The position numbers and the translations under genes are program-made. Below, one piece after another: positions 20,711-48,098 of a DNA stretch of 64,000 bases. Every line of letters begins with the position of its first letter. Within the stretch, counting starts at the first letter, position 1. The notes under the pieces were generated by a model. The model did not search any database, was not told the DNA's origin, and saw only the letters and a list, made by a program, of their open reading frames with translations. This DNA comes from Candidatus Zymogenus saltonus (lineage in GTDB: Bacteria > Desulfobacterota > Zymogenia > Zymogenales > Zymogenaceae): positions 1 through 64,000 of the forward strand of contig JAFGIX010000046.1 in assembly GCA_016929395.1 (NCBI GenBank). Direction: 5' to 3'.

Positions 20711-21436
20711 ATGAAATCATATATAAAAAGAAAAAGTTTTACAGAGATATTTTGTAAGATCGGAATCATTTGTTCTTCCGTATTGCTTGTTTTTTCGGCC
20801 GCCGTGTCGTGTACGCCGATGGGAAGCACGTCTGCCGGCCCCGTTCACTCGTTGCCGACGGAGGCGAGCCGTTACGAACACAGGGTTCAGCCCGGGGATT
20901 TTATCGATATAAACCTCTGGGAGGAGGGGGAGCTGAAGGAGTACAAGGTTCAGGTCACAAAGAGGGGAACGATAAGCTTTTTGTTCTTCGAGGACATCAA
21001 CGTGTTGGGAATGACAAATAAGGAGCTGGACAAGCACCTGACACAGGTCCTGTTGGAATATTACGTTTCTCCCATGCTTACTGTAAAGATAAGGGAAGTT
21101 GTGTACCTCTTGGGGGAGGCCAAAAACCCGGGGGCATATACCTTTGAAGACGGCTTGACCCTCGCCGCAATACTCGCTTCGGCGGGTGGGCCGACAAAGG
21201 ACGCAAAGCTTAAGAATGTCCTGGTGATCAGGGGTTACAACAAAGACCCGGAGGTGGTTGTTGCGAATTTCAGAAAGATGTTGAAAAAGGGCGACCTGAC
21301 CCAGAACATCTATCTTAAGGGCGGAGACATCATCTTTCTGCCTTCCACAACGATCGCAAACGTCAACTATTTTGTAAGGCAGATTATGCCCATACTTGAA
21401 TTCTTGATGTTTCCGACAAGAGTTGTATTTCCTTAA
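20711..21436 (+). CDS. Wza-like polysaccharide export lipoprotein
   Basis: A 241-residue protein with an N-terminal signal and lipobox-like A-V-S-C (lipidation at Cys34). The mature part has a Poly_export domain (about 55-135: Y-R-V-Q-P-G-D-F-I-D-I-N-L-W is represented as H-R-V-Q-P-G-D-F-I-D-I-N) and a SLBB-type domain (Y-L-L-G-E-A-K-N-P-G-A-Y, about 137-148). It ends with a hydrophobic helix (about 218-238) comparable to the outer-membrane helix of Wza. It should form the outer-membrane exit pore. The next gene is its usual partner, a Wzc-like kinase, 23 bp downstream. Confidence 0.9.
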   Translation: MKSYIKRKSFTEIFCKIGIICSSVLLVFSAAVSCTPMGSTSAGPVHSLPTEASRYEHRVQPGDFIDINLWEEGELKEYKVQVTKRGTISFLFFEDINVLGMTNKELDKHLTQVLLEYYVSPMLTVKIREVVYLLGEAKNPGAYTFEDGLTLAAILASAGGPTKDAKLKNVLVIRGYNKDPEVVVANFRKMLKKGDLTQNIYLKGGDIIFLPSTTIANVNYFVRQIMPILEFLMFPTRVVFP

Positions 21437-21459
21437 AGACTACGAAAAGGGAATTTTTT

Positions 21460-23727
21460 ATGGCTCAATATGAGATACAACTGAAAGACCTGATCAGGAT
21501 AGTAAGAAAGCGCAAGAACATAATTATTTTTTCGACCGTTACCCTTTCCGTCCTGAGCTTTTTATTTGCCTTGATTCAATCGCCCCCTCCCATGTACAAG
21601 GCGGTGGCGAAGGTTAAATACGACAGCAGTCGGTCTCTTGTAGGGATGATGCCCAGCTTCTACTACTCGCCTTACAGCAATATCAAGTCTCAAACGAAGA
21701 TCATTACCAGTTTCCCTGTATTAAAGGAGGCCGCAAAAGAGGTCGGACTTATAAGTATTGGGGATATGAGCGAGGAACAGGAAAATGACACGATCCTGCA
21801 CTCCAAGGAGCATATGAGCAATATCTCCATGATCGAGGCGGCAGTGAAGGCCGAGCCGGAAGAGGGCACGGATATAATAAATATTACTGTAATATACAAA
21901 GATCCGGTTATGGCCGCCGATATTGCAAATGCCCTGGCCAAAAGCTACAAAGAGTACAATATAAAGTTAAAAAATGAGCAAACCATCAAGACAAAGGAGT
22001 TCATCGAGAAACAGTTGAAAGAGCTTTCAAGAAGATTAAATAAGGCCGAAGATGAGCTGAAGGATTTTCAAAACAAAAAGGAAATCGTTTCTCTGGACAG
22101 TCAGGCCTTGATGGATTTGAAAGCTCTCGATGACCTCCAAAGGAAACATGAGGCCCTTAATCGTGAAAACCAGACCCTGGTCTATTACAGGAGTAATCTC
22201 TCGTCGAAGGGCTCATCGGGGAACATGTTTCAGCTCAGAGAAATTGACAGGGACAGCACCCTCAACAGGTATAATCTGGAGCTTCAGGAGCTTCTGATAG
22301 AGCGGGACAAGTATCTCACGACGTACACGGAGCGTCACCCGAAGGTCGTGGACGTAAACAATAAAATCTCAAAATTGAGAGGCTCGATCCGTTCGGATAT
22401 TTATGCAAGGATAGAGACGAACAAGAAGGACATGGAGATACTGAAGAAGGATATCGAAAAGTATAAAGAGAAGACAGCGGAATATCCGAACGACAGCCTG
22501 ACCCTCGTCAGGCTCGAGAGGGAGGTGGAGCTTCAGAGCGGTCTCTTTTCCGAGCTGAATTCAAAATACCAGGAGATTCTAATCCAGGAATCCGGCAAGA
22601 TTGTGGAGGTATCCGAGGTGACGCCGGCCCTTGTCAATGAAAAGAGGGTCAATCCACCGAAGATCGGATCCTCGTTTTTTATGGGCCTTTTTATCGGATT
22701 GTTTCTCGGCATCTTTTTCGCGATCGTAAGAGAAAACATGGACACCTCCATAGGGACCATCGAAGATGTTGAGAGCTATCTTGAGATTCCGGTTCTCGGG
22801 GTCATTCCGTATGTTGCATCGATTAAGGGCGTTCCGGGGGAAGAGGAGGCAAAAGAAAAGGAGGGGGATTCGGAGCCCCCGCTCGTCTTTTTAATGAACC
22901 CGAAGTCCCAGGTTGTGGAGGCGTACAGGAGTCTTCGCACGAACATCCTCTTTATTAATCAGGAAAAGGGGACGAAAACATTCATGGTGACAAGCTCCTC
23001 CCTCCAGGAGGGGAAAACGATAAACTGCATCAATATTGCCGTCACCCTTGCCCAGGGTGGGTATCGTACCCTTTTGGTCGAGGCGGACATGCGCCGGGGC
23101 ACCATAGGCAAGATCTTTGGAATAGAGAAGTCCCCGGGGTTGTCGGACATCATCCTTTCCAGCCGGAACTGGAAGGAAGTGAAAAGGGACATCAACGATA
23201 TACTGCTGGGCGGCATCGATATGGACGTTCTTATAAAATCTCCCGAGCTGTCGAATTTCAACATAATTACTTCAGGGACCTTCCCCATCAATCCATCGGA
23301 ACTGATCAACTCCCAGCAGATGTCCAAGTTCATAGAAGAGGTAAAGGAAAGCTACGACTTTGTGATTTTCGATTCTACTCCGGTGCTCCCCGTGACGGAT
23401 GCGGTCCTCCTGAGCCAAAAGATCGAAGGAGTCATCTTGCTCTACGAGGTGGGCAAGATCGCAAGGGGCGTTCTCAAGCGCTCCAAACTGCATCTGGAGG
23501 CGGTCAAAGCGAATGTGGTAGGGGTGATCTTAAACGGCGTGAGGCCGGAATACGGCCCGGATTATTACGAATATCACTATCAGTACTATTACAGCGAAGA
23601 GAAAGAGAGCCCCAAGCCGAAAGATCTTGCGGCCTTGAAGGAGATGATTACAAAGGAGAACATGATGTATCTTTTGAACTCCGCAAAAAATGGGATCTCA
23701 AATCTCTTCAAGAGGAAAACGAAATAG
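21460..23727 (+). CDS. Wzc-like polysaccharide co-polymerase / BY-kinase
   Basis: A 755-residue inner-membrane protein. First membrane helix about 18-40, a long periplasmic coiled-coil (Wzz-type, about 170-380), second helix about 403-425, then a cytosolic BY-kinase domain (about 485-715): Walker A S-S-S-L-Q-E-G-K-T (lysine near 521), Walker A' L-L-V-E-A-D-M-R-R and Walker B V-I-F-D-S-T-P-V. The C-terminal region holds the tyrosine-rich cluster Y-G-P-D-Y-Y-E-Y-H-Y-Q-Y-Y-Y, the usual autophosphorylation tail, here internal and followed by a further 50 residues. It controls chain length and export with the Wza-like protein. Confidence 0.93.
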   Translation: MAQYEIQLKDLIRIVRKRKNIIIFSTVTLSVLSFLFALIQSPPPMYKAVAKVKYDSSRSLVGMMPSFYYSPYSNIKSQTKIITSFPVLKEAAKEVGLISIGDMSEEQENDTILHSKEHMSNISMIEAAVKAEPEEGTDIINITVIYKDPVMAADIANALAKSYKEYNIKLKNEQTIKTKEFIEKQLKELSRRLNKAEDELKDFQNKKEIVSLDSQALMDLKALDDLQRKHEALNRENQTLVYYRSNLSSKGSSGNMFQLREIDRDSTLNRYNLELQELLIERDKYLTTYTERHPKVVDVNNKISKLRGSIRSDIYARIETNKKDMEILKKDIEKYKEKTAEYPNDSLTLVRLEREVELQSGLFSELNSKYQEILIQESGKIVEVSEVTPALVNEKRVNPPKIGSSFFMGLFIGLFLGIFFAIVRENMDTSIGTIEDVESYLEIPVLGVIPYVASIKGVPGEEEAKEKEGDSEPPLVFLMNPKSQVVEAYRSLRTNILFINQEKGTKTFMVTSSSLQEGKTINCINIAVTLAQGGYRTLLVEADMRRGTIGKIFGIEKSPGLSDIILSSRNWKEVKRDINDILLGGIDMDVLIKSPELSNFNIITSGTFPINPSELINSQQMSKFIEEVKESYDFVIFDSTPVLPVTDAVLLSQKIEGVILLYEVGKIARGVLKRSKLHLEAVKANVVGVILNGVRPEYGPDYYEYHYQYYYSEEKESPKPKDLAALKEMITKENMMYLLNSAKNGISNLFKRKTK

Positions 23728-23751
23728 CTCCCCAAAAAACCCATCGCCCAA

Positions 23752-25167
23752 ATGGGTCCTGTCATGAAAGCGCCTAAAATGGACAATTCAACGGGGGAAT
23801 TGAACACTCCCACGATATTGTTGTTCGGGGTAATGATTTTTTTCATCGCTATCCTGGCGTTTTTTCTCTCCGGCCAGATTGAGCTCAAGATGATGATTCT
23901 GCTCCTCGGGATCATCTCTTCGGCGATATGTTTCTTCAACACGGAGATGGCTCTCTATTTGATAATCTTCGCGATGCTCTTTTCGCCGGAGTTTTCAGTG
24001 GGAGGGGGACTCGAAGAGGAGCGAAGCCTCGTAATCAGGATTGAGGACGTGGTTATAGTAATAGTATTCCTTTCATGGATACTCAAAACCACAATATATA
24101 AGGGGCTCGGACTTATAGTCAAGACCCCCCTCAACAACTCGATACTGATCTACATTTTCGCCACCCTCTTCTCTACCCTTTGGGGGTCGCTGGTCGGAGA
24201 GGTCAGCCTCCTCTCGGGCCTCCTCTATGTATTCAAATATATGGAATACTTCCTCGTCTTTTTTCTGTTCGTCAGCAGTTTAGAGGACAAAAGCCAAATA
24301 CAGCGTTTCATAGTGGTGGCGTTTATTGTCGCGATATTTACCGCCCTTTACGCAATGATCCAGATCCCCCAGGGGGTGAGGGTGAGCGCCCCGTTCGAGG
24401 GGACATCGGGAGAGCCGAACACCCTTGGAGGCTATCTGATTCTTATTATCTCCGTCTCGGCCGGGCTTTTAATGACACTTGAGGACAGGAAGATCAAGAG
24501 GTATCTCATCGGCGTGATCGCCCTCCTCTCGGTCCCCTTTATCTTCACCCTGTCACGAAGCTCGTATATCGCGGTGATACCGATGTTTGTAACCCTGTTT
24601 TTCTTTTCAAAGAAGAAGGTCATCCTTGCCGCTCTTCTGTTGGTCTTTTTGGTGTTTTCGCCCTTTGTACTCCCGGAAAAGGTCAAGGGACGGGTGACCG
24701 AGACCTTCGTCCCTTATCCCGGTTATGAGGGCACCGAGACCCTTCTGGGCAAAGGGCTGGATCCTTCTACATCCGCCAGGATCACTTCCTTTAGGTATGC
24801 AATTTCAAAATGGGCGGAAAAACCGCTCTTGGGCTGGGGCGTTACGGGGGTCGGGATAATCGACAGCATGTATTTCAGGGTACTGGCGGAGACGGGCCTT
24901 TTGGGGATTACCGCCTTTTTTTACCTGATCTATAGGATAATAGTCTTTCTCTACTTCACATTCAAGGAGGCTCAGGACAAGTTTCTCAAGGGCCTTTCAT
25001 TTGGGATGCTCTTGGCAACGCTGGCCCTTCTCGCCCATTCCATAGGGGCTGCGACCTTCATTATCGTCAGGATCATGGAGCCGTTCTGGTTCTTTATGGC
25101 GACGATCTTTCTGCTGTCAAAGATCGAGAAGTCCAAAGATGAGATTACTGTCAAGGAAAAGCGGTGA
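23752..25167 (+). CDS. O-antigen ligase/polymerase-like (Wzy/WaaL) membrane protein
   Basis: A 471-residue protein with about eleven to twelve hydrophobic segments and a large periplasmic loop (about 310-365) before the motif L-L-G-W-G-V-T-G-V-G-I, as in Wzy_C/O-antigen ligase proteins. The N-terminus could begin at 23752, 23764 or 23779; none has a clear Shine-Dalgarno. Position directly after wza/wzc-like genes makes the polymerase of the repeat unit the best call. It overlaps the following glycosyltransferase by 4 bp (GTGA). Confidence 0.85.
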   Translation: MGPVMKAPKMDNSTGELNTPTILLFGVMIFFIAILAFFLSGQIELKMMILLLGIISSAICFFNTEMALYLIIFAMLFSPEFSVGGGLEEERSLVIRIEDVVIVIVFLSWILKTTIYKGLGLIVKTPLNNSILIYIFATLFSTLWGSLVGEVSLLSGLLYVFKYMEYFLVFFLFVSSLEDKSQIQRFIVVAFIVAIFTALYAMIQIPQGVRVSAPFEGTSGEPNTLGGYLILIISVSAGLLMTLEDRKIKRYLIGVIALLSVPFIFTLSRSSYIAVIPMFVTLFFFSKKKVILAALLLVFLVFSPFVLPEKVKGRVTETFVPYPGYEGTETLLGKGLDPSTSARITSFRYAISKWAEKPLLGWGVTGVGIIDSMYFRVLAETGLLGITAFFYLIYRIIVFLYFTFKEAQDKFLKGLSFGMLLATLALLAHSIGAATFIIVRIMEPFWFFMATIFLLSKIEKSKDEITVKEKR

Positions 25168-32338: not shown

Positions 32339-33034
32339 GTGGGTATTTCAAGCTTGATTTCAAGGATATTTCTGAGGTTTCGGGGGGACGTGGGAAAAGA
32401 CATCTCCAGCGGCCCCCTCTCCGATAGGATAAGGGAGTGCGCGGCAGGGCTCGCCCGCGGGAAATCGTGCGACGTCGCCTTAGAGGTCGGGGTGGGGGAG
32501 GGGCTTCTGGCAAAGTCGGTAATCGACGGGGGTTCCGTAAGGACGCTGGTCGGGGTGGATGTCCTCAAGCAGCAGCTTATCGAGGCGGGATTGAGGATAA
32601 GGGGCGACAATCCCTCAAAAGACGGCGGGATTTTTTCCGGGAGGCTCAAGGTTGTAGTGGCGAGGGGGGAGACGCTGCCATTCAAAGAAGGGGCCTTCAA
32701 CCTTGCGATTACCGTAAACACCCTCCACAACCAGCCGTCCTGGGACGAGGCCTCTGTCATTTTGGGGGCGGTCTGCAATGTTGTCCGTTTTGGGGGTAGC
32801 GTCATCTTTGATATAAGGAATCGCAGGGACCCGTTGATCTATACGGCCTACAGGTTTTCCACGATCATCGATCCCTCGACAAGAAGGCTCCCCGTAAACG
32901 CATATTCCATATCCAGGGTCAAGGGGAGGCTTACGGAGCTCGGATTTGACGTGGTAAAGAAGGTCCCGATTAGGTACAGGTTCTGGCCGATTCCGAGCGG
33001 TTTTTTGATAGAGGCGGTTAGGATCAAGAAATGA
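32339..33034 (+). CDS. class I SAM-dependent methyltransferase
   Basis: A 231-residue protein starting at GTG 32339. Motif I is A-L-E-V-G-V-G-E-G (about 46-54), followed by V-G-V-D-V (motif post I), L-P-F-K-E-G-A-F-N-L-A-I (motif IV region) and G-G-S-V-I-F-D-I-R (motif VI). In this setting it most likely methylates a sugar residue or chain end, which in some systems terminates chain growth. Its end overlaps the DegT gene by 4 bp (ATGA). Confidence 0.8.
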   Translation: MGISSLISRIFLRFRGDVGKDISSGPLSDRIRECAAGLARGKSCDVALEVGVGEGLLAKSVIDGGSVRTLVGVDVLKQQLIEAGLRIRGDNPSKDGGIFSGRLKVVVARGETLPFKEGAFNLAITVNTLHNQPSWDEASVILGAVCNVVRFGGSVIFDIRNRRDPLIYTAYRFSTIIDPSTRRLPVNAYSISRVKGRLTELGFDVVKKVPIRYRFWPIPSGFLIEAVRIKK

Positions 33035-34218
33035 GAAGAGCGCCCACAAACTCCTTTTACAACAGCCAGGGGGGACTCCTGCGCTCTGCGCTCTCTCTTG
33101 GAGGGGAAAAAGACATTTCCGCCTTCGAGGAGGCCTTCGCCGATTACATCGGGGTGAGGCGGGCCTTTTTGGTGGGTTCGGGAACCTCCGCCCTCTATAT
33201 CATCTTAAAGGCGTTGAAAAACCTCTATCGAGGAAGCGAGGTCGTCCTCCCCGCCTATACCGTTCCCACGCTGACGTTGGCGATAGAGAGGGCCGGATTG
33301 AAGACGAGGCTTTCCGATATTGACATAAAGACCTTCAACCTTGACCCGAAGCGCCTTGGTGATGTAACATCTGGCGACACCCTTTCCGTGGTGCCCGTAC
33401 ATATGTTCGGATTTCCGATGGATCTCTCGGAAATAAAAAGGCAGGCCGAGAGGGAGGGATTTTGCGTGATCGAGGACTGCGCCCAGGCACCAGGGGCCGA
33501 GCTGTTCGGGAAGAGGGTTGGCGGGGGGAGCGGCGTTGGATTCTTTTCCATGTGCAAGGGTAAGATCATCTCGACCTTCAGGGGAGGCGTCATAACGGCG
33601 AGCGATCCTGATATCGCACGGGAAATCGGGAGGGAGATCGAATCCCTGCCGACACCGGGCGTCTTATTCAACCCGATGCTCTTTGTCACGCTCTTTCTAA
33701 TGCACTACGCCACGAATCCCGCGATATACGGCCCTCTCTTCAGGCTGATAGAGCCCTTCAAGTCCACTGTGGTGCACGAGCACTTCGAGCCGACTCTTGC
33801 GACATCCTTTGTTGCGAGGCTTGGGAAAATCCAGATCGAGGCGATCGGCGGCCAAATAGAGCGGAGGGTCGAAAACGGAAAAGCCCTTTACAGCGCCTTG
33901 AAAGGGATCGAGGGGATAACGCTTCCCGCGATCGTTGACGGGGCATCCCCAGCCTACAATCACCTCCCGGTGATGATAGAGGAAAAAGATAAGATTGACC
34001 ACATAGCCCGGCTCCTCTTCAAAAGGGGGATAGATACCGCCCGGATGTACGGGCGGCCGATTCATAAAATATACGACCTCGGGTATTCCGCTTCCCACGA
34101 TCCCTTCCCCGAAGCGACGAGGCTATCCGAGCGCCTTCTTGTGCTGCCGGTTCATCCGGGGGTGACGGGGAGGGATTTGGAAATCGTAATAAAAACCTTC
34201 AGGGAGATATTTGTTTAA
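33031..34218 (+). CDS. DegT/DnrJ/EryC1-family PLP aminotransferase 1
   Basis: A 395-residue fold-type I PLP protein. Cofactor landmarks are V-G-S-G-T-S-A-L (about 46-53), V-I-E-D-C-A-Q-A-P-G and F-F-S-M-C-K-G-K, where the lysine expected to form the Schiff base falls. The usual S-F-x-x-x-K is altered (S-M-C-K-G-K), so which lysine is catalytic is not certain. The family aminates keto-sugars such as 3- or 4-keto-6-deoxyhexoses. No sugar dehydratase (RmlB-like) is in the window, so its substrate would be made elsewhere. Overlaps the methyltransferase gene. Confidence 0.87.
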   Translation: MRRAPTNSFYNSQGGLLRSALSLGGEKDISAFEEAFADYIGVRRAFLVGSGTSALYIILKALKNLYRGSEVVLPAYTVPTLTLAIERAGLKTRLSDIDIKTFNLDPKRLGDVTSGDTLSVVPVHMFGFPMDLSEIKRQAEREGFCVIEDCAQAPGAELFGKRVGGGSGVGFFSMCKGKIISTFRGGVITASDPDIAREIGREIESLPTPGVLFNPMLFVTLFLMHYATNPAIYGPLFRLIEPFKSTVVHEHFEPTLATSFVARLGKIQIEAIGGQIERRVENGKALYSALKGIEGITLPAIVDGASPAYNHLPVMIEEKDKIDHIARLLFKRGIDTARMYGRPIHKIYDLGYSASHDPFPEATRLSERLLVLPVHPGVTGRDLEIVIKTFREIFV

Positions 34219-34222
34219 AGCC

Positions 34223-34420
34223 ATGCCGATATCCAAAGGTAAGAAAGTAAAAACGAGAAAGAGGTTTTATCTCACAATCCTTCTTGTTGCGGTGGTTTTA
34301 GGGCTCTTGATACCCATTATATGCGAGAAGCTCTCAAGCGTGGGAGAGCCGGACTACTATTACCCCCACGATGTCGACCGGGAGGATTACCTTAAAGAGA
34401 AGAAGCAAGAGGTAAAATGA
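34223..34420 (+). CDS. small single-pass membrane protein
   Basis: A 65-residue protein from ATG 34223 (the frame opens at TTG 34211, overlapping the DegT stop). Basic N-terminus (K-G-K-K-V-K-T-R-K-R), one membrane helix (about 15-34), and a charged tail D-Y-Y-Y-P-H-D-V-D-R-E-D-Y-L-K. It is coupled by a 4-bp overlap (ATGA) to the radical SAM gene, so it is likely its partner or anchor. No family recognised; too short for secure homology. Confidence 0.6.
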   Translation: MPISKGKKVKTRKRFYLTILLVAVVLGLLIPIICEKLSSVGEPDYYYPHDVDREDYLKEKKQEVK

Positions 34421-35577
34421 TCCCGATAAGAAACATCGGAAGGGCGCTCAAAAAGGCTAAGGAATTTCCGGGATATGCCCTGAAGGCCCTCATTCAAAGG
34501 TCCCGCTCCGGCCTCAGCTACTTCCTCTTTCGGGGAAGGAGCGCCCCGCCGGAGACTGTCTCCCTTCTCTTGACCTACAGGTGCAACCTCCGCTGCAAGA
34601 TGTGCGGCCAGTGGGGAGAGACCGGCTCATCGAAGTTTTATACGCCAGAGGTCTTGAGGGAGGAGCTTGACGTTAAAGAGGTGGGCGTGCTCGTCGATCA
34701 TCTCAAGCGGGCATACGCATTTCCTCCGGCGATCACTCTTTTCGGCGGGGAGCCGCTTCTCTACAGTGGGATTATCGAGGTCATCGAGCGGATAAAGAAA
34801 AACGGGATGCGGTTGAACATCATCACTAATGCGACGCTCCTTAAAAAATACGCAAAAGACCTCGTGCGCGCAAAACTGGACGAGATCATTTTTTCCCTTG
34901 ACGGCCCCCCCGATGTGCACGACATGGTTAGGGGGAGGAAGGGGGTCTTCGATGACGCGAAGGAGGGATTTTTGATCCTGGACGAGGAGAAGAGGCGCCT
35001 CAAGACGACACGTCCCGTGGTCAACGTAAACAGCACGATCTTCGACTTCAACTACCTCGCAATCCCAGAGACCGTTAAGAGTGCCCGCTCCCTCGGGGCG
35101 AGGGAGGTGACCTTTCACCACCTCATATTTATAGACGGCGGAAGGCTCAAAAGCCACAACATGGAGATGAGGGAGCAGTACGGCTGCGAGAGTCACGACT
35201 GGGCGGGCTTCGTACTGGGCAGGCTTCCGGCCATAGACACGAAACTGCTCAGGGAAAAGCTAAATGAGGCTAAGTCGATGGGGGCGACGGTCTACCCGAA
35301 CCTGACCGACGACGAGATCGAGGTCTACTACACGAACTTCACCTTCTCCCCGAGGAGCTACTCGGGGAGGTGCAAGAGCCCGTGGATGGTGGCCTACATC
35401 TTCCCGGACGGCACCGTGCGGCCGTGTCTCTCCCTGGGGGTTAAGATCGGAAACATCAGGGAGCGCCCCTTCGCCGAGATCTGGAACGACCACCTCTACA
35501 GGCGCTTCAGGAGACGCGTAAAGGAGAGGGGGCGGTTTGACGTGTGCGATCGATGCACGGAGCTGTATCGATTTTAG
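34417..35577 (+). CDS. radical SAM protein with SPASM-like C-terminus
   Basis: A 386-residue protein. The radical SAM cluster is C-N-L-R-C-K-M-C (Cys56, Cys60, Cys63), followed by the GGEP-like G-G-E-P-L-L-Y (near 110) and the TIM-barrel core. The C-terminal SPASM-like region has Cys at R-C-K-S-P-W, V-R-P-C-L-S-L-G, and V-C-D-R-C-T, enough to bind an auxiliary [4Fe-4S] cluster. Such enzymes modify peptides or sugars by radical chemistry. In a polysaccharide locus it might alter a sugar or lipid precursor. No peptide-precursor gene is evident, apart from the 65-residue membrane protein just upstream. Confidence 0.88.
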   Translation: MIPIRNIGRALKKAKEFPGYALKALIQRSRSGLSYFLFRGRSAPPETVSLLLTYRCNLRCKMCGQWGETGSSKFYTPEVLREELDVKEVGVLVDHLKRAYAFPPAITLFGGEPLLYSGIIEVIERIKKNGMRLNIITNATLLKKYAKDLVRAKLDEIIFSLDGPPDVHDMVRGRKGVFDDAKEGFLILDEEKRRLKTTRPVVNVNSTIFDFNYLAIPETVKSARSLGAREVTFHHLIFIDGGRLKSHNMEMREQYGCESHDWAGFVLGRLPAIDTKLLREKLNEAKSMGATVYPNLTDDEIEVYYTNFTFSPRSYSGRCKSPWMVAYIFPDGTVRPCLSLGVKIGNIRERPFAEIWNDHLYRRFRRRVKERGRFDVCDRCTELYRF

Positions 35578-35621
35578 TTGATACAAATTCGGGCTGTGCA
35601 GAATTGGAGGAACGGACGGCA

Positions 35622-36806
35622 ATGGGGGGAATAGTCAATGAGAACGGGGGAAGGATAAAGGTTCTTCACGTAATCACGCGTATGGAGGAGGGGGGCGCGC
35701 CGAGGGCGCTACTCTCGCTCCTTGACGGGATTGACGGCCGGGAGTTCGATCAGTCCCTTGCGGCGGCGGCGGGCCCTATGGGAAGCGACCTGCTGGGCTG
35801 CGGGAGGGCCCTCGGGATCGACGTTTGCGAAATCAGGACGTTTACGAGGGAGGTAAGCCCGGTCAAGGACGTCCTGAGTCTCCTCTCGCTGGTTGCTTTG
35901 ATGAGGAAAAACAGGTATGATATTATACATACGCATACATCGAAGGCGGGCTTCTTGGGGAGGCTGGCGGGGAGGCTTGCCGGCCACCGGAGGGTGATAT
36001 ACTCCCCCCACGGGAACATCTTTACCGGCTACTTCCCCCGGTGGGAGGCCGAGTTCTACACGTTGATGGAGAGGATTGCGGCCGGATGGTGTCAGAGGAT
36101 CGTTACCCTCTCGGATGCGGGGAGGCGCGAGTTTCTCGAGAGAGGCATAGGCACCGAAGACAGATACAGGACGATATATAACGGCATCGACTTGGAGGCC
36201 TTTGGGAGCGCGGCGGACCGAAGGGGGGTTCGCAATGAGCTCGGATTTGGGGATAAAGACCTTGTAATTGTCTGCGTGGGGAGGATGGTGCCGATCAAGG
36301 GTTACGACACCGTCGTCAAGGCGTCCCAAAAGATCATCTCCGGCATGGCCCCGAGGGCGGTTCGCTTCCTGATGGTGGGGGAGGGGCCGCTGAAGGTGGA
36401 GTTAACGGAAAAGGCAAGGGCGCTGGAAGTCGGGGGAAATTTTACGTTTCCGGGCTTTCGCGACGACGTTTCCCGGCTCCTCTCCGCCAGCGACCTTATG
36501 GTAATGCCATCGCTCAACGAGGGGCTGGGGATGAGCATAGTGGAGGCGATGGCCCTCTCTCTTCCGGTGGTGGCTTCCCGCGTGGGGGGGATAGTGGAAG
36601 TGGTCGAAGACGGCGTTACCGGGATGCTCGTCCCCCCATCGAGCCCCGTTGATCTGGCCAAGGCCTGTGTCGGTATCCTCCGGGATAAGGAGAGGGCGGA
36701 AAGGATGGGAAGAGCCGGGAGGGTCAGGGCGGAGTCGCTCTTCGACATCAAGAGCATGGTCAAGAACACCGAGGCCCTCTACAGGGAGTTGATGGAGGAA
36801 GGATAA
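35622..36806 (+). CDS. GT4-family glycosyltransferase F
   Basis: A 394-residue GT4 protein. ATG 35622 is chosen because TTGGAGGAACGG precedes it and the core K-V-L-H-V-I-T-R-M-E-E-G-G-A starts soon after; the frame is open from 35544, overlapping the radical SAM gene. Landmarks: H-T-H-T-S-K-A-G-F-L-G-R (near 95), H-G-N-I-F-T-G-Y-F, Y-N-G-I-D-L-E-A-F and the E-x7-E motif E-G-L-G-M-S-I-V-E. Similar to WecF/capsular GT4 enzymes of the HTHTSKAG type. Confidence 0.9.
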   Translation: MGGIVNENGGRIKVLHVITRMEEGGAPRALLSLLDGIDGREFDQSLAAAAGPMGSDLLGCGRALGIDVCEIRTFTREVSPVKDVLSLLSLVALMRKNRYDIIHTHTSKAGFLGRLAGRLAGHRRVIYSPHGNIFTGYFPRWEAEFYTLMERIAAGWCQRIVTLSDAGRREFLERGIGTEDRYRTIYNGIDLEAFGSAADRRGVRNELGFGDKDLVIVCVGRMVPIKGYDTVVKASQKIISGMAPRAVRFLMVGEGPLKVELTEKARALEVGGNFTFPGFRDDVSRLLSASDLMVMPSLNEGLGMSIVEAMALSLPVVASRVGGIVEVVEDGVTGMLVPPSSPVDLAKACVGILRDKERAERMGRAGRVRAESLFDIKSMVKNTEALYRELMEEG

Positions 36807-36875: not shown

Positions 36876-37559
36876 ATGATAGTCGCCATTCACCAGCCGC
36901 AGTATCTGCCCTGGCTCGGGTACTTCGACAAGATCGACAGGGCCGACGCCTTTGTATTTCTCGATACTGTACAGTTCAAGAAGAACGAGTTTCAAAACAG
37001 GAACAGGATAAAGGGAACGGGCGGCGCCCAGTGGCTTACCGTGCCGGTCTTTCAAAGGCACGGGCAGAGGATCAGCGAGGTCGCGATCAACAATACCGAC
37101 AAATGGCAAAAAAAGCATGTCATGGCCGTGCTCTCCTGCTATGGAAAGGCCCCCTTTTTCGGCGAGTATTTCGGGGCCTTTGAAGAGCTCCTCTCGAGGC
37201 CCTGGGAGGGGCTCTCATCCCTCAACATGGAGACTGTGAGGCTTATCGCCTCGATCCTCAAGATCGAAACGGAATTTTACACCGCTTCGGAGCTGGGGGA
37301 TTTTCCGGAAGAGAGGGACGGGCGTCTCGTTCAGATCGTCAAGGAGCTCGGCGCGGACACCTACCTCGCCGGCGCGGGGGGGAGGGAGTATATGGATACT
37401 GATATTTACGCCGACTCCGGGATAGAGGTCGTCTTTCAGGATTTCAAGCATCCCGCCTATCCCCAGCTCTTCGGAGAGTTTGTGCCGTATCTTTCTGTTG
37501 TGGACCTTATATTCAATGCGGGCAAATCGAGTCTTGATTACATTCGGGGGAATACATGA
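36876..37559 (+). CDS. WbqC-family protein
   Basis: A 227-residue protein. N-terminal I-H-Q-P-Q-Y-L-P-W-L-G-Y-F, N-R-N-R-I-K and the later Y-L-A-G-A-G-G-R-E-Y-M are the WbqC signature. WbqC proteins are common in O-antigen and capsule loci next to DegT aminotransferases and are thought to help acylate amino sugars; no mechanism is firmly established. GAGGGGG precedes ATG 36876; the stop overlaps the deacetylase start (ATGA). Confidence 0.88.
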   Translation: MIVAIHQPQYLPWLGYFDKIDRADAFVFLDTVQFKKNEFQNRNRIKGTGGAQWLTVPVFQRHGQRISEVAINNTDKWQKKHVMAVLSCYGKAPFFGEYFGAFEELLSRPWEGLSSLNMETVRLIASILKIETEFYTASELGDFPEERDGRLVQIVKELGADTYLAGAGGREYMDTDIYADSGIEVVFQDFKHPAYPQLFGEFVPYLSVVDLIFNAGKSSLDYIRGNT

Positions 37560-38176
37560 ACATGAACATACTGGCGTTGGGGGCGCATCCGGACGACATA
37601 GAGTTCGGCTGTGCCGGAACCCTCGCGAAGTACGCGAGGAAGGGCCATGTTATATATTATATGATATTGACGAAGGGAGAGAGGGGCGGCGTCGGAAAGG
37701 TTAGGGCGAAGGAGCAGAAGGATGCCCAGTATACCGTATTGGCCAAGAAGATCTTCTGGGGGGAATTCGAGGACACCGCCCTTCCACCGCAAAAGGACCT
37801 GATAAAGGCGGTGGAGGACGTAATCATCGAGGTTAATCCTGATATGGTATTGGTGAACTACCACGAGGACACCCATCAGGATCACAGGGAGCTCGCCATG
37901 GCGCTGAATTCCTCCGCGAGACACATAAGGAACGTCCTATATTACGAGGTTCCCTCGACCCAGAATTTTTCGCCGACCGTTTTCGTGGACATCGAAAAAT
38001 TTATGGACGTAAAGATGCAGGCGCTCATGGCCCATAAGTCCCAGATAATGAAGACCAACGTGGAGGGGATCTCGATTTTGGAGATCGCCCGCTCCCTGGC
38101 GAATTTTCGCGGGATACAGGCGAAGATGAAATACGCCGAGGCCTTCATGCCCCAGCGCTTGGCCATTAACGTCTGA
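37556..38176 (+). CDS. PIG-L/LmbE-family deacetylase
   Basis: A 206-residue protein. The zinc motif A-H-P-D-D-I-E-F-G (near 9-17) and the second H-E-D-T-H-Q-D-H (about 101-108) match PIG-L N-acetylglucosamine deacetylases. In this locus it should remove an N-acetyl group from an activated or lipid-linked amino sugar, which the WbqC protein could then re-acylate. Overlaps the WbqC gene by 4 bp. Confidence 0.92.
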   Translation: MNMNILALGAHPDDIEFGCAGTLAKYARKGHVIYYMILTKGERGGVGKVRAKEQKDAQYTVLAKKIFWGEFEDTALPPQKDLIKAVEDVIIEVNPDMVLVNYHEDTHQDHRELAMALNSSARHIRNVLYYEVPSTQNFSPTVFVDIEKFMDVKMQALMAHKSQIMKTNVEGISILEIARSLANFRGIQAKMKYAEAFMPQRLAINV

Positions 38177-38189
38177 AGTTGATATTAAA

Positions 38190-39317
38190 ATGTCGATTGG
38201 ATCGATAAATAAGGGCGGGAAGGGCAAGGGGATTATCCCCCACTCCCGGCCGTCCATAGACGAGGAAGACGCCTTAAGGGCGGCCGAGGTGATCAGGTCG
38301 GGGATGTTGACCGTGGGCGATGAGAGGGGAGCCTTCGAGAGGGCGTTTGAAAAGAGGATCGGGATATCCCCCGAAGGCGCCGTCTCGGTCGATTCCGGGA
38401 CCGCCGCAATCCACCTGGCGCTTCTGGCGCTTAAGGTCGGGGTAAACGACAGGGTGATACTCCCCGCCTACTTGTGCGCGGCGCCCTTAAACGCCGTGAG
38501 ATACGTGGGCGCGGCGCCGGTCCTCGCCGATGTAGATCCCGATACCGGGATTGCCGGCGAGAGAGAGTTTGCCGAGGCCCTTGAGTCGATTAAGGATGAG
38601 AGGGGGGGTAGGACGATTATTATAGCCGTCCACCCTTTCGGGAGATCGGCCCCGGTGGACGAGATCAAGTCTCTCGGCCCACCCGTAATCGAGGACTGCG
38701 CCCAGGCGACGGGGGGCGCGCTGAAGGGGAATCCCTTGGGAACCTTCGGCGACCTGTCGGTCTTCTCCTTTTACGCCACGAAGGTGATGACCACCGGCCG
38801 GGGGGGGATGGTCTGCTCGGAAAGCGAGGAGATCGCGTACAGGATTCGAGACCTCGTCAGATACGACGAGAGGGAGGAGGACGGGGTGAGGTTCAACTAC
38901 GCGATGACCGAGTTTCAGGCGGCGCTCGGAAGGAGCCAGCTTAAGAGGCTCGATGCCTTCATCTCGAGGAGGAGGGAGATAACAGCCTACTACAGTGGGG
39001 AGTTCGAGAGGGCCTCGATTCCGATGCCCCGAAAGGCTCCTGTTGGGGACGACATAAATTTCCGCTTTATCGTAAAGGTAAGGGGGGCGGTCGATAAGGT
39101 AATAAAGGGGCTCAATAAAAGGGGGATAGGAGCGAGGAGGCCCGTCTTCAAGCCCCTGTATGAATACACAGGGGACGAGGAGCTCCCGGGGACGAAGTGG
39201 GCCTTCGATGAGGACGTCTCGATCCCCATATATCCCGCATTGACCGACGGCGAGATTGAGATGATTGCCTGGGCCGTAGTCGACGTGATGGCCGAGGTAA
39301 GACCATCGAAAGTCTGA
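38190..39317 (+). CDS. DegT/DnrJ/EryC1-family PLP aminotransferase 2
   Basis: A 375-residue protein with V-D-S-G-T-A-A-I-H (about 69-77), V-I-E-D-C-A-Q-A-T-G and the PLP-lysine segment F-S-F-Y-A-T-K-V-M-T-T-G-R-G-G, which is a standard DegT active site (unlike aminotransferase 1). It likely makes an amino sugar from a nucleotide keto-sugar. Directly follows the deacetylase gene (13 bp). Together with WbqC and PIG-L it outlines an amino-sugar branch. Confidence 0.92.
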   Translation: MSIGSINKGGKGKGIIPHSRPSIDEEDALRAAEVIRSGMLTVGDERGAFERAFEKRIGISPEGAVSVDSGTAAIHLALLALKVGVNDRVILPAYLCAAPLNAVRYVGAAPVLADVDPDTGIAGEREFAEALESIKDERGGRTIIIAVHPFGRSAPVDEIKSLGPPVIEDCAQATGGALKGNPLGTFGDLSVFSFYATKVMTTGRGGMVCSESEEIAYRIRDLVRYDEREEDGVRFNYAMTEFQAALGRSQLKRLDAFISRRREITAYYSGEFERASIPMPRKAPVGDDINFRFIVKVRGAVDKVIKGLNKRGIGARRPVFKPLYEYTGDEELPGTKWAFDEDVSIPIYPALTDGEIEMIAWAVVDVMAEVRPSKV

Positions 39318-39339: not shown

Positions 39340-40500
39340 ATGGCTCTGAAGAAAAAAATAAGGGAGATAGAGCTTTTTTGGTTCTTATCCCTTTTGTACT
39401 TTATAGTTCTTCTTCTCCCCCCCGTTTTCAGGTTTTTTGTCGAAATAGGAGAGCGGTGGATATGGATACTCCTCTTTTCATGCGCCACTTCCTATATGCT
39501 TATGCCGGCTTTCATTAAGATATCCAAACACAGAAACTACATGGATGTTCCAGGGGGCAGGAAGGATCACGAAGCAGCCACCCCAATTTTGGGGGGAGTT
39601 CCCATAGCCGTCGCCTTTATCGTCTCCCTTATAATAAACGGTGTCATCAGCCCGGCGCTCATTTCGGTTATGGCGGCCTCGCTGATAATCCTTGTCGTCG
39701 GAATCCTGGAAGATATTTTCGGGGTCAAGGAGTGGATCAGGCTGCTATTGCAGGCGGCCGCCTTCGGCATTGTGGCCGTGGCTGGGGTTGTCCTGAAGCT
39801 TTTTCCTCCGACACCTCTGGGGAATGTGCTGAACTGCATTCTGACGTTTATCTGGATCGTCGGGATAACAAACGCCATGAACTTTATTGACGGCCTCGAC
39901 GGCCTATGCGGGGGGATAACGATAGTCATCTCCTTTTTCCTTGGGGTGATCGCATTCCAGACGGATCAGCCCGACCTGGGATGGCTCTCGGTCGCCCTTT
40001 TGGGCGGCGTGCTCGGCTTTATTCCCTTCAACTTCATCCCGAAGAAGAGTGCGAGGATATTTTTGGGCGATGCCGGAAGCTCCTTTCTCGGATTCGTGCT
40101 GGCGTCGCTGGCTGTCCTGGGGGAGTGGTCCGAAAACAATCCCCTCGTTTCGTTTTCCACTCCCCTTATAATCTTCGGCGTTCTCATATACGACATAGTC
40201 TATACGAACGTCGCCAGGATATTAAAGAAGCAGGTGAAGAGCTTCAAGGAGCTCCTCTCCTTTGTGGGAAGGGATCATATCCACCACAGGATCGCGGCCC
40301 AGATAGGGGACAGGAAGCTCGCCGTTGTCTTTATAGTTCTGATAAATGTGGTCTTCGGCCTGGGGACTATCGCCCTGAGAAACGCCGATTTCATCGTTGC
40401 GTTCGTCCTGGTCGTTCAGACGCTTCTGATATTTCTGCTCATTACGATCCTTGAGGTGAGCTCCAAACAGAGGAACAGGAGAAAGGAGGACAGGAAATAG
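39340..40500 (+). CDS. WecA/MraY-like polyprenyl-phosphate sugar-1-phosphate transferase
   Basis: A 386-residue protein with ten or more hydrophobic segments. It has the family motifs P-I-L-G-G-V-P (usually PTPxxGG), N-A-M-N-F-I-D-G-L-D-G-L (catalytic Asp pair, near 180-190), F-L-G-D-A-G-S-S-F-L-G-F and G-R-D-H-I-H-H-R. The first aspartate pair (usual D-D) reads L-E-D-I-F-G. It moves a HexNAc-1-phosphate from UDP-sugar onto undecaprenyl phosphate and so starts the repeat unit of the locus. A basic C-terminal tail ends it. Confidence 0.92.
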   Translation: MALKKKIREIELFWFLSLLYFIVLLLPPVFRFFVEIGERWIWILLFSCATSYMLMPAFIKISKHRNYMDVPGGRKDHEAATPILGGVPIAVAFIVSLIINGVISPALISVMAASLIILVVGILEDIFGVKEWIRLLLQAAAFGIVAVAGVVLKLFPPTPLGNVLNCILTFIWIVGITNAMNFIDGLDGLCGGITIVISFFLGVIAFQTDQPDLGWLSVALLGGVLGFIPFNFIPKKSARIFLGDAGSSFLGFVLASLAVLGEWSENNPLVSFSTPLIIFGVLIYDIVYTNVARILKKQVKSFKELLSFVGRDHIHHRIAAQIGDRKLAVVFIVLINVVFGLGTIALRNADFIVAFVLVVQTLLIFLLITILEVSSKQRNRRKEDRK

Positions 40501-46913: not shown

Positions 46914-48098
46914 CTACTTATAAAACTCCGCGATCGTATCCACCACGTAATCGATCATCTTACGGGTAAGCTCGGGATATACCGGGAGGGCGAGGCTCGT
47001 CAGGGCTCCCCTCTCGGACTCCGGAAAGTCCCCCTTGCTGTAGCCGAGGTCTTTGTAGCACTCCTGGATGTGCAACGGCAGGGGGTAGTATATCTCCGTG
47101 CCTATGCCGTTATCTGCGAGGCACGCCCTCAGCCCGTCCCTATCCTCAACCGTGATGACGAACTGGTTATAGATATGGTGGTAGCCGTCGACCTCGACCG
47201 GCAGGGTAACGACCGGATTTTTTCCGGCCGCAATGCCCGAGGATGTGATGAGCTCCCTGTATATGTCGGCGTTTTTTCTCCTCCCCTCCGACCATTTGTC
47301 CAGATGCTTAAGCTTTACCCTCAATATGGCTCCCTGGAGGGCGTCCAGGCGGCTGTTCAATCCCACGATCTTGTGGTAATACTTCGGCTTGCTCCCGTGA
47401 TTTCTCAGTATCCTGGCCCGCTCTGCAAGGTCTGCGTTGTTTGTGGTCAGCATACCGCCGTCCCCGTAGCCCCCAAGGTTCTTCGATGGGAAGAATGAGA
47501 AGCAGCCGAAGTCGCCCATCGAGCCGGCGCCCCTCCCCTTGTATTTTGAGCCGATGGCCTGGGCCGCGTCCTCGACTACCGAGAGGCCGTATTTTACGGC
47601 CAGCTCCAGAATCGGGTCCATGTCGGCCGTCTGGCCGTAGAGATGGACCGGCATTATCGCCTTAATTTTCAAGCCGTCCTTCGTCTTCAGGGAGTCCCCG
47701 CTCGATTTTAGCCCAGAGAGAAAAGATTTAAGCTTTTCCGGGTCGATGTTGAAGGTGGCCGGATCGATGTCGATGAAGATCGGGACGGCGCCTACTCTCG
47801 TAATGGAGCCCGCCGTGGCGAAAAAGGAGTACGGGGTCGTGACGACGGCGTCTGTGGCCTCTCCCCCGCTCATGCTGCCTATTTTAAGGGCCATCAGCGC
47901 CACCAGGATGGCGTCGCTTCCCGAGGCCACGCCCACGGCGAAGTCCGCCCCCACGTATCGGGCGACCTCCCCCTCCAGCGCCTCCACCTCCGGCCCAAGG
48001 ATGAAGTACTGGGACTCCAACACCCCTTCAACCGCCTCTTTTATCTCGCCCCTTATCGCGGCGTACTGGGCCTTTAGATCCAACAGTGGAACCTTCAT
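46914..48098 (-). CDS. DegT-family aminotransferase, WbpE/WlbC-like
   Basis: A 394-residue PLP enzyme: V-P-L-L-D-L-K-A-Q-Y (3-12), V-A-S-G-S-D-A-I, V-V-E-D-A-A-Q-A-I-G and the lysine segment F-S-F-F-P-S-K-N-L-G-G-Y-G-D-G-G, which is the form seen in WbpE-type aminotransferases. These convert UDP-2-acetamido-3-keto-glucuronate to the 3-amino sugar, with glutamate as donor. The gene upstream is a WbpD-like acetyltransferase with a 4-bp overlap, the next enzyme of that route. WbpA and WbpB homologues are not in the window. Confidence 0.88.
   Translation of the reverse strand: MKVPLLDLKAQYAAIRGEIKEAVEGVLESQYFILGPEVEALEGEVARYVGADFAVGVASGSDAILVALMALKIGSMSGGEATDAVVTTPYSFFATAGSITRVGAVPIFIDIDPATFNIDPEKLKSFLSGLKSSGDSLKTKDGLKIKAIMPVHLYGQTADMDPILELAVKYGLSVVEDAAQAIGSKYKGRGAGSMGDFGCFSFFPSKNLGGYGDGGMLTTNNADLAERARILRNHGSKPKYYHKIVGLNSRLDALQGAILRVKLKHLDKWSEGRRKNADIYRELITSSGIAAGKNPVVTLPVEVDGYHHIYNQFVITVEDRDGLRACLADNGIGTEIYYPLPLHIQECYKDLGYSKGDFPESERGALTSLALPVYPELTRKMIDYVVDTIAEFYK

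Follow-up and report, generated by a model that had tools for sequence, protein, structure and literature searches.

The small gene and its protein

We analysed a 64,000-nucleotide stretch of contig JAFGIX010000046.1 (assembly GCA_016929395.1) from Candidatus Zymogenus saltonus, a member of the family Zymogenaceae in the Desulfobacterota; this whole stretch is referred to below as the window. Within it a small gene is flanked by a DegT/DnrJ/EryC1 aminotransferase gene (DegT1) upstream and a radical SAM gene downstream, in a locus rich in polysaccharide genes. We asked what the small protein might be and what its two neighbors might make.

By reading of the open reading frames (ORFs), the small gene occupies positions 34223-34420 of the forward strand, starts with ATG and encodes 65 amino acids. 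The protein consists of a basic head, a single membrane helix and a Tyr/Asp-rich tail (DYYYPHDVDREDYLKEKKQEVK). Its stop codon and the start codon of the radical SAM gene share the 4 bp ATGA. Hydropathy placed the helix at residues 15-33, and an AF2 model of low confidence (mean pLDDT only 70) extended it to residues 9-41. An earlier reading of the DNA letters without database searches (the sequence-only reading) had described the single helix, the Tyr/Asp-rich tail, the 4-bp overlap and the length of 65 residues, and all of these were borne out. Its start at position 34211 is less likely. A TTG codon there would give a 69-residue protein and was rejected as the start, since it would overlap the DegT1 stop codon and both the ATG and the relatives described below fit position 34223 better.

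The head of the protein carries a net charge of +7 and the tail one of -3. The same asymmetry occurred in all four Zymogenaceae proteins that we compared (head +4 to +10, tail 0 to -3). By the positive-inside rule the head is thus predicted to lie in the cytoplasm and the tail in the periplasm, although the tail might be modified before insertion. The small protein matched no family in Pfam, NCBIfam or PHROGs.

Conservation within the Zymogenaceae

The small gene was present directly upstream of the same radical SAM gene and downstream of the same DegT gene in three further genomes, G001 (same genus as the window genome), G002 (same family) and G003, where it encodes 60-71 amino acids. All four Zymogenaceae genomes therefore have it beside the radical SAM gene. 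Pairwise identity among the four proteins was 38-53%, and twelve residues were invariant (M1, K10, Y16, I19, L21, Y45, Y46, Y47, P48, D50, R53 and Y56). Seven of these twelve fall in the 12-residue block Y45-Y56, making the tail the best-kept part of the protein, while the 9-18 residues of head ahead of the helix are poorly conserved. In all six pairs of genes codon position 3 was the most variable (24, 12 and 38 differences at positions 1, 2 and 3 between the window and G001; 32, 25 and 33 in the narrowest pair, G003 and G002). Because the same frame recurs in the same place in three relatives and shows this codon-position bias, the small ORF is a genuine conserved gene and more than a chance frame.

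When a profile of the small protein was run against 395 genomes of its own phylum, 12 genomes gave matches at E 0.01 or better. The four Zymogenaceae scored 5.5e-29 or better and were the only full matches. The other eight scored 3e-4 or weaker, covered model positions up to 38 only and lay mostly inside long open frames.

The radical SAM enzyme and its partners in other phyla

The sequence-only reading had called the downstream enzyme radical SAM/SPASM-like, and Pfam agrees: it matched the radical SAM superfamily (PF04055, E 1.2e-20) and a SPASM domain at residues 319-381 (PF13186, E 4.7e-15). In NCBIfam no family scored above its cut-off among the 25 of 68 families listed. The CxxxCxxC cysteines C56, C60 and C63 were invariant in all 55 aligned orthologs, as were C319, C377 and C380 of the SPASM-type domain; C337 was Cys in 40 of the 55. 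SPASM peptide enzymes as a rule have seven cysteines for two auxiliary clusters, and this pattern was not found in the enzyme across the 55 aligned orthologs. The four conserved domain cysteines therefore leave room for one auxiliary cluster, not two. In the remaining 15 orthologs (L057, L058, L065, L073, L079, L080, L082, L083, L086, L089, L091, L096, L099, L102 and L129) Tyr or Phe takes the place of C337, with a His directly after it, which may indicate a His-ligated cluster.

The AF2 model of the enzyme, whose fold and structural matches fit the partial TIM barrel of the radical SAM superfamily, had a pLDDT of 94, with the first 40 residues forming two helices. This helix pair is conserved and carries conserved basic residues. 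Among solved structures BlsE (7vob) was nearest to the model (Foldseek E 3.6e-16; VIA Z 26.1, root-mean-square deviation 2.9, 291 residues aligned), followed in the VIA ranking by SkfB (23.1), SuiB (22.4) and, in fourth place, DesII (22.0). A fold shared with BlsE or with the peptide enzymes, as seen in a model, would not by itself indicate function.

To place the enzyme, genome contigs were scanned with an alignment of it, and the best 80 of 146 relatives were kept. These were full length or nearly so, 38-73% identical to the window enzyme and collinear with it across phyla; their hosts include Latescibacterota, Planctomycetota (Scalindua, Brocadiaceae), Omnitrophota, Neomarinimicrobiota, KSB1, Elusimicrobia, Deltaproteobacteria and others. 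Among viral contigs, 70 pattern matches yielded no true relative. The small gene stood at two of the 80 loci, both from Zymogenaceae, or at four of 82 with the window and G003 included. It was not found at the other 78 within the stretch read, which reached no further than 10 kb to either side and was often shorter.

The neighboring genes recurred far more widely, and the following counts are lower bounds since many contigs end early. A DegT1 homolog lay upstream of the radical SAM gene in at least 45 of the 80 loci (within 300 bp in 33, and within 40 bp in 23 of these), and the position of the pyridoxal phosphate-binding lysine, K178, was Lys in all 42 aligned homologs. Downstream, at least 41 of the 80 loci had a GT4 glycosyltransferase gene within 2 kb, at least 41 a WbqC gene within 9 kb and at least 28 a PIG-L gene within 9 kb. 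Because DegT1 recurs with the radical SAM gene across phyla and the small gene does so only in Zymogenaceae, the DegT/radical SAM pair appears to be ancient, with the small gene seemingly inserted between the two in a single family.

In Scalindua and relatives (L061-L063, L066, L068, L071 and L072) a gene of 562-567 amino acids lies between the DegT1 homolog and the radical SAM gene; we take its C-terminus, by eye, to resemble a NodU-type carbamoyltransferase. In L084, L086, L087, L090-L094, L097 and L098, mostly Neomarinimicrobiota, a gene of about 250-270 amino acids sits directly upstream of the radical SAM gene and resembles, again by eye, a cyclic-nucleotide-binding plus FHA protein. A response-regulator-like gene, also recognized by eye, follows the radical SAM gene in L092 and L097.

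Similar small proteins beside an O-antigen-ligase-like gene

Small proteins with a similar tail were found outside the Zymogenaceae. In six genomes that we refer to as Scalindua-type, a protein of 94-110 amino acids with the tail GYGYVPRDxERxEKL or similar is encoded directly downstream of an O-antigen-ligase-like gene; a seventh Scalindua-type protein, from G410, has 61 amino acids and lacks the motif. The ligases beside these proteins are 37-40% identical to the ligase-like protein of the window, and one Neomarinimicrobiota ligase is 39% identical to it. The neighbors in these stretches were named by BLAST against ORFs labelled by eye (co-polymerase, export protein, flippase). None of the seven stretches, of 9.9-19.9 kb, contained a homolog of the radical SAM enzyme, DegT1, WbqC or PIG-L.

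The E-values of our combined profile, A3, against the proteins of G401, G404 and G407 (1e-21 to 3e-30) arise by construction, as all three belong to A3. For this reason separate and Zymogenaceae-only profiles were used. In 40 genomes with the radical SAM gene, the Zymogenaceae-only profile found the Scalindua-type proteins of G407 (2.5e-5), G404 (2.4e-4) and G401 (1.2e-3), together with two proteins bearing a YYEPRDLER tail (5.1e-7 and 1.1e-5). When three separate profiles were run on 19,417 ORFs, all six motif-bearing Scalindua-type proteins (5e-6 to 9e-4) outranked the other non-Zymogenaceae ORFs in the Zymogenaceae search, as did the YYEPRDLER proteins. In the opposite direction the Zymogenaceae proteins came up at 1.5e-4 to 0.012 with the Scalindua-type profile, ahead of nearly all other ORFs, and at 3e-7 to 0.7 with the YYEPRDLER profile. 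Across 14 aligned relatives P48, D50 and R53 were invariant and Y45 and Y46 nearly so, giving the core motif [YF]xPxDxxR.

We then considered the neighbors of this ligase subfamily, irrespective of sequence similarity. The filter accepted adjacent genes on the same strand encoding at most 220 amino acids, with one helix, a head charge of at least +4 and a tail of at least 12 residues. Such a small bitopic neighbor stood beside 16 of 25 ligase genes, compared with 17 of 709 other genes of at least 250 amino acids and none of 58 genes with at least five helices in the 80 radical SAM loci. Without the seven Scalindua-type loci, which had first been found through the small protein, the count was 10 of 18. 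In Neomarinimicrobiota the bitopic gene lies directly upstream of the ligase gene (five of six by the filter, all six by a looser list). A small single-helix gene can also be seen at L097 (head charge +3), L191 and L200, which did not pass the filter; no such gene was seen at the ligase in L196, L201, L099, L101, L129 or L170.

In Neomarinimicrobiota (L087, L091, L092, L094, L096 and L097) these neighbors share a conserved GSAVRxETxxRxxYE tail, and the gene lies about 6-7 kb downstream of the radical SAM gene. These proteins were rejected as homologs of the window protein and treated as analogous, since the best match (E 0.005) covered the helix alone. In the Brocadiaceae-type loci L197-L200 the gene upstream of the ligase encodes a single-helix protein of 161-206 amino acids; its head is long, basic and charged, and its helix is followed by a TGGLPNxxxKxxSKNIEKAIQ-like stretch. 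Scalindua-type loci contain a second small single-helix protein near the ligase, beside or replacing the YxPRDxxR protein, with a motif like HRKTGxTDxDVExL...WExTWDRxRW (L139:9216-9566, L140:3883-4302, L160:9209-9634, L161:9380-9769 and L163:9839-10186; beside the ligase in L194 and L195).

Co-occurrence across genomes

Among 75 genomes of the class to which G404 belongs, the radical SAM gene was present in 28 at a cut-off of E 1e-60, a number that fell to 21 at 1e-95; the ligase was present in 15 and the small protein, called at E 0.001 with the A3 profile, in 15. All 15 ligase genomes and all 15 small-protein genomes fell within the 21 radical SAM genomes (P 2.4e-11 each, kinship ignored). 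The cut-off of 1e-95 was chosen after the results had been seen; both sets of 15 also lie within the 1e-60 set. Counting the four Zymogenaceae, 19 of 19 genomes with the small protein have the radical SAM gene somewhere. A search for the small protein gave three matches in 294 genomes of the phylum of G404, all in genomes bearing the radical SAM gene, and none in 27 genomes from radical SAM loci outside that class, a search made without a positive control.

This co-occurrence can be read either as dependence of the small protein on the radical SAM enzyme or as membership of both in a shared system. We favor the shared system, not decisively, because most radical SAM genes lack the small gene and the Scalindua-type proteins stand beside the ligase.

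The polysaccharide locus of the window

That the small gene lies in a sugar locus, as first read from the letters, is confirmed by Pfam (Table 1). The Poly_export, Wzz/Wzc-type co-polymerase and Wzy_C genes by which we recognize a Wzy-type locus stand together at 20711-25167. The PF00953 gene is presumably the initiating WecA-type enzyme. No Wzx flippase was seen among the 30 window ORFs scanned; a flippase-like ORF was noted in G001 (L171) by eye only. A third DegT/DnrJ/EryC1 aminotransferase gene (46914-48098, reverse strand; PF01041, E 3.8e-107) lies outside the main operon, near His_biosynth genes.

Table 1. Features of the locus, with positions in the window.
Feature	Position	Strand	Basis
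Poly_export/SLBB export protein (Wza type)	20711..21436	+	PF02563, PF10531
Wzc-like polysaccharide co-polymerase with kinase domain	21460..23727	+	PF02706, PF13807, PF13614; TIGR01007 above cut-off
Wzy_C/O-antigen-ligase-like protein; homologs flank small single-helix proteins elsewhere	23752..25167	+	PF04932; 37-40% identity to Scalindua-type and Neomarinimicrobiota homologs
DegT/DnrJ/EryC1 aminotransferase (DegT1), pyridoxal phosphate lysine position K178; neighbor of the radical SAM gene in other phyla	33031..34218	+	Pfam, synteny
65-residue bitopic membrane protein (basic head, one helix, Tyr/Asp-rich tail)	34223..34420	+	ORF; kept in three other Zymogenaceae; topology by hydropathy and charge, AF2 of low confidence
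Conserved tail block, codons Y45-Y56 (YYYPHDVDREDY); core motif [YF]xPxDxxR, residues 46-53	34355..34390	+	Alignments
Radical SAM enzyme with SPASM-type C-terminal domain, 386 residues; CxxxCxxC C56/C60/C63; auxiliary site C319/C337/C377/C380	34417..35577	+	Pfam, alignment and Cys count, AF2, BlsE nearest
GT4 glycosyltransferase downstream of the radical SAM gene, start codon uncertain	35544..36806	+	Pfam
WbqC-like protein	36876..37559	+	PF08889
PIG-L-type deacetylase	37556..38176	+	PF02585
Second DegT-family aminotransferase	38190..39317	+	PF01041
Glycosyl transferase family 4 (PF00953)	39340..40500	+	Pfam

Possible roles of the small protein

Starting from what was observed directly, namely the gene, its conservation, its synteny and its co-occurrence, we tentatively propose that the small protein assists Wzy-like polysaccharide assembly as a bitopic accessory protein and that the radical SAM enzyme and DegT1 make an unusual sugar. 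We consider this a real possibility that falls a little short of probable. The protein would sit in the inner membrane with a short cytoplasmic head, a helix and a periplasmic tail bearing the [YF]xPxDxxR motif, and would assist periplasmic assembly at the Wzy/O-antigen-ligase-like protein and the Wzc-like co-polymerase or close to them. The neighboring radical SAM enzyme would most likely not act on it. Instead, this enzyme and the upstream DegT might modify a nucleotide- or lipid-linked sugar, candidate reactions being radical deamination, decarboxylation, epimerisation or dehydrogenation as in DesII, BlsE or BtrN, and the products of the glycosyltransferase, WbqC-like and PIG-L genes downstream would build the modified sugar into the polymer. 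Translational coupling of the small gene to DegT1 and the radical SAM gene is probable in Zymogenaceae. A broader proposal, which we regard as doubtful, is that deep-branching phyla share an undescribed polysaccharide system in which a DegT/radical SAM pair makes an unusual sugar and a particular Wzy/O-ligase-like protein has a dedicated small bitopic partner, its periplasmic tail being of the [YF]xPxDxxR or another kind, that acts as a regulator or glycan acceptor.

Several observations weigh against an accessory role at the ligase. In Zymogenaceae the small gene touches the radical SAM gene, and 9 kb separate it from the ligase gene in the window. The ligases of the window and of G002 have no small neighbor, their small gene being at the radical SAM gene; the window ligase was outside the 25 counted above and would be a further miss. 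Those 25 genes fall into few clades, such that the counts are not independent, and for the ligase neighbors in Neomarinimicrobiota and in Brocadiaceae-type genomes the likeness is one of build, with no demonstrable homology. Within the 21 radical SAM genomes the small protein and the ligase were not further associated (11 shared, P 0.58), while the Scalindua-type proteins taken alone were found with the ligase in seven of seven (P 0.055). Finally, the YYEPRDLER proteins are equally near the Zymogenaceae profile (seven of seven at 5e-7 to 0.024 among the 19,417 ORFs), and eight YYEPRDLER-type matches (A3 E 2e-9 to 1e-4), out of the 15 in the class of G404, adjoin genes that by eye are aspartokinase- and/or ferritin-like, with no ligase. 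In the Brocadiaceae-type loci L134, L162 and L164-L168 the proteins with such a tail are single-helix proteins of 109-180 amino acids. By these scores the kinship of the Zymogenaceae proteins to others is weak and favors no group. We therefore gave less weight to the accessory role and to the broader proposal, and more to two of the alternatives, a passenger protein and a precursor.

One possibility is that the small protein has a general membrane function and merely travels with the operon. The spread of the motif family over three genomic contexts, one of them with no recognized polysaccharide assembly gene beside it, would fit such a passenger, but in the other two the family is found in polysaccharide loci that share this ligase subfamily, and on balance we judge this explanation fairly unlikely.

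Another possibility is that the basic head binds the radical SAM enzyme or DegT1 and so keeps sugar modification at the membrane, close to lipid-linked intermediates. The tight coupling of the two genes in Zymogenaceae is consistent with such an anchor, as is the conserved helix pair with its basic residues at the N-terminus of the enzyme, though the helix pair is conserved where the small gene is absent as well. This role is unlikely, as the head is short and poorly conserved, conservation lies in the tail instead, and similar proteins adjoin the ligase, away from the radical SAM gene.

It could also be speculated that the small protein is the substrate of the enzyme, with tail residues modified perhaps before membrane insertion. 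The sequence-only reading had seen in the pair the layout of a precursor or anchor with its enzyme. The pair and the conserved tail did hold in all four Zymogenaceae. A precursor would also suit the 4-bp overlap in the window, the presence of the enzyme in every genome with the small protein, and the nearness of peptide enzymes, which also counts against a sugar-directed enzyme: the second and third structural matches, SkfB and SuiB, are of this kind, and the best sequence-profile match in the PDB was SkfB (7e-19), practically level with the sactipeptide enzyme 5wgg (1.2e-18) and BlsE (1.7e-18). The sequence-only reading had also suggested that finding the pair, with conserved tail residues, in other genomes would support a precursor. 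Tail conservation was found within one family, but the pair did not extend beyond it, the small gene being absent from all but two of the 80 scanned loci while the enzyme remains collinear across phyla. This is largely the outcome that the sequence-only reading had named as one that would refute it, a small frame not conserved beside homologous radical SAM genes. Furthermore, the nearest structure is that of a sugar enzyme, the enzyme has one auxiliary-cluster site, the tail is predicted to be periplasmic, and the Tyr two residues before the invariant Pro is Phe in one of 14 relatives. Neither the enzyme nor any of 28 other window ORFs scanned gave an RRE-type (PqqD-like) Pfam match at E 0.001, though a divergent RRE would escape such a search. 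We therefore consider a precursor improbable.

Least probable is that the O-ligase-like protein attaches glycan to the tail and the small protein anchors the polymer in the membrane: similar proteins do lie directly downstream of the O-antigen-ligase-like gene, the Tyr/Asp-rich tail is next to the membrane and the window ligase weakly resembles the putative O-glycosylation ligase family TIGR03097 (40 bits against a cut-off of 188), but no single Tyr is invariant in the 14 aligned relatives, where P, D and R are.

Comparison with known systems

In desosamine-type chemistry, DesI and DesII are a DegT-family aminotransferase and a radical SAM enzyme that act on one sugar. The window resembles this arrangement in the linkage of a DegT-family gene to a radical SAM gene and in the structural match to DesII; it differs in that DesII is only 15% identical and that the DegT1-radical SAM pair lies in glycosyltransferase loci of many phyla. 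DesII itself is described as an enzyme of desosamine biosynthesis (PMC11434129). BlsE, the nearest solved structure, is described as a cytosylglucuronate decarboxylase, a radical SAM enzyme working on the sugar part of cytosylglucuronic acid (PMC3715490). BlsE is 22% identical to the window enzyme over the aligned residues and acts on a nucleoside in an antibiotic pathway, whereas in the window enzyme about 40 N-terminal residues are helical and the gene sits in a polysaccharide locus. The radical SAM-SPASM maturases of the SkfB/SuiB type share the fold, the Pfam domains and a small gene beside the enzyme; the window enzyme differs from them in its single auxiliary site, the lack of an RRE match, the absence of the small gene at 78 of 82 orthologs and the predicted periplasmic position of the tail. 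A new peptide-modifying pair is a tempting reading that is probably wrong.

For the small protein, a search of open-licence literature found no description of the family or of its possible link to the ligase subfamily; mention there of a small membrane protein together with an O-antigen ligase and exopolysaccharide concerns GtrA flippases, which have three to four helices.

BcsF and PgaD are examples of short membrane proteins that help a polymer synthase or a secretion complex, a likeness in kind only, as their assembly systems differ from that of the window. The closer comparison is with Wzx/Wzy-type assembly (Wza, Wzc and a Wzy/WaaL-like ligase), to which the Wza-, Wzc-, Wzy_C- and PF00953-type genes of the window correspond; to our knowledge a small bitopic protein as a regular neighbor of Wzy_C is no part of that scheme. 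The parts of the locus thus belong to known kinds: a Wzy-type locus, sugar chemistry by DegT and a radical SAM enzyme, and a small accessory membrane protein. If our proposal is correct, it names an unrecognized small component of Wzy-type polysaccharide assembly. In many uncultured phyla the radical SAM/aminotransferase pair, for its part, is accompanied by these glycosyltransferase and WbqC genes, and its sugar product could be tested directly.

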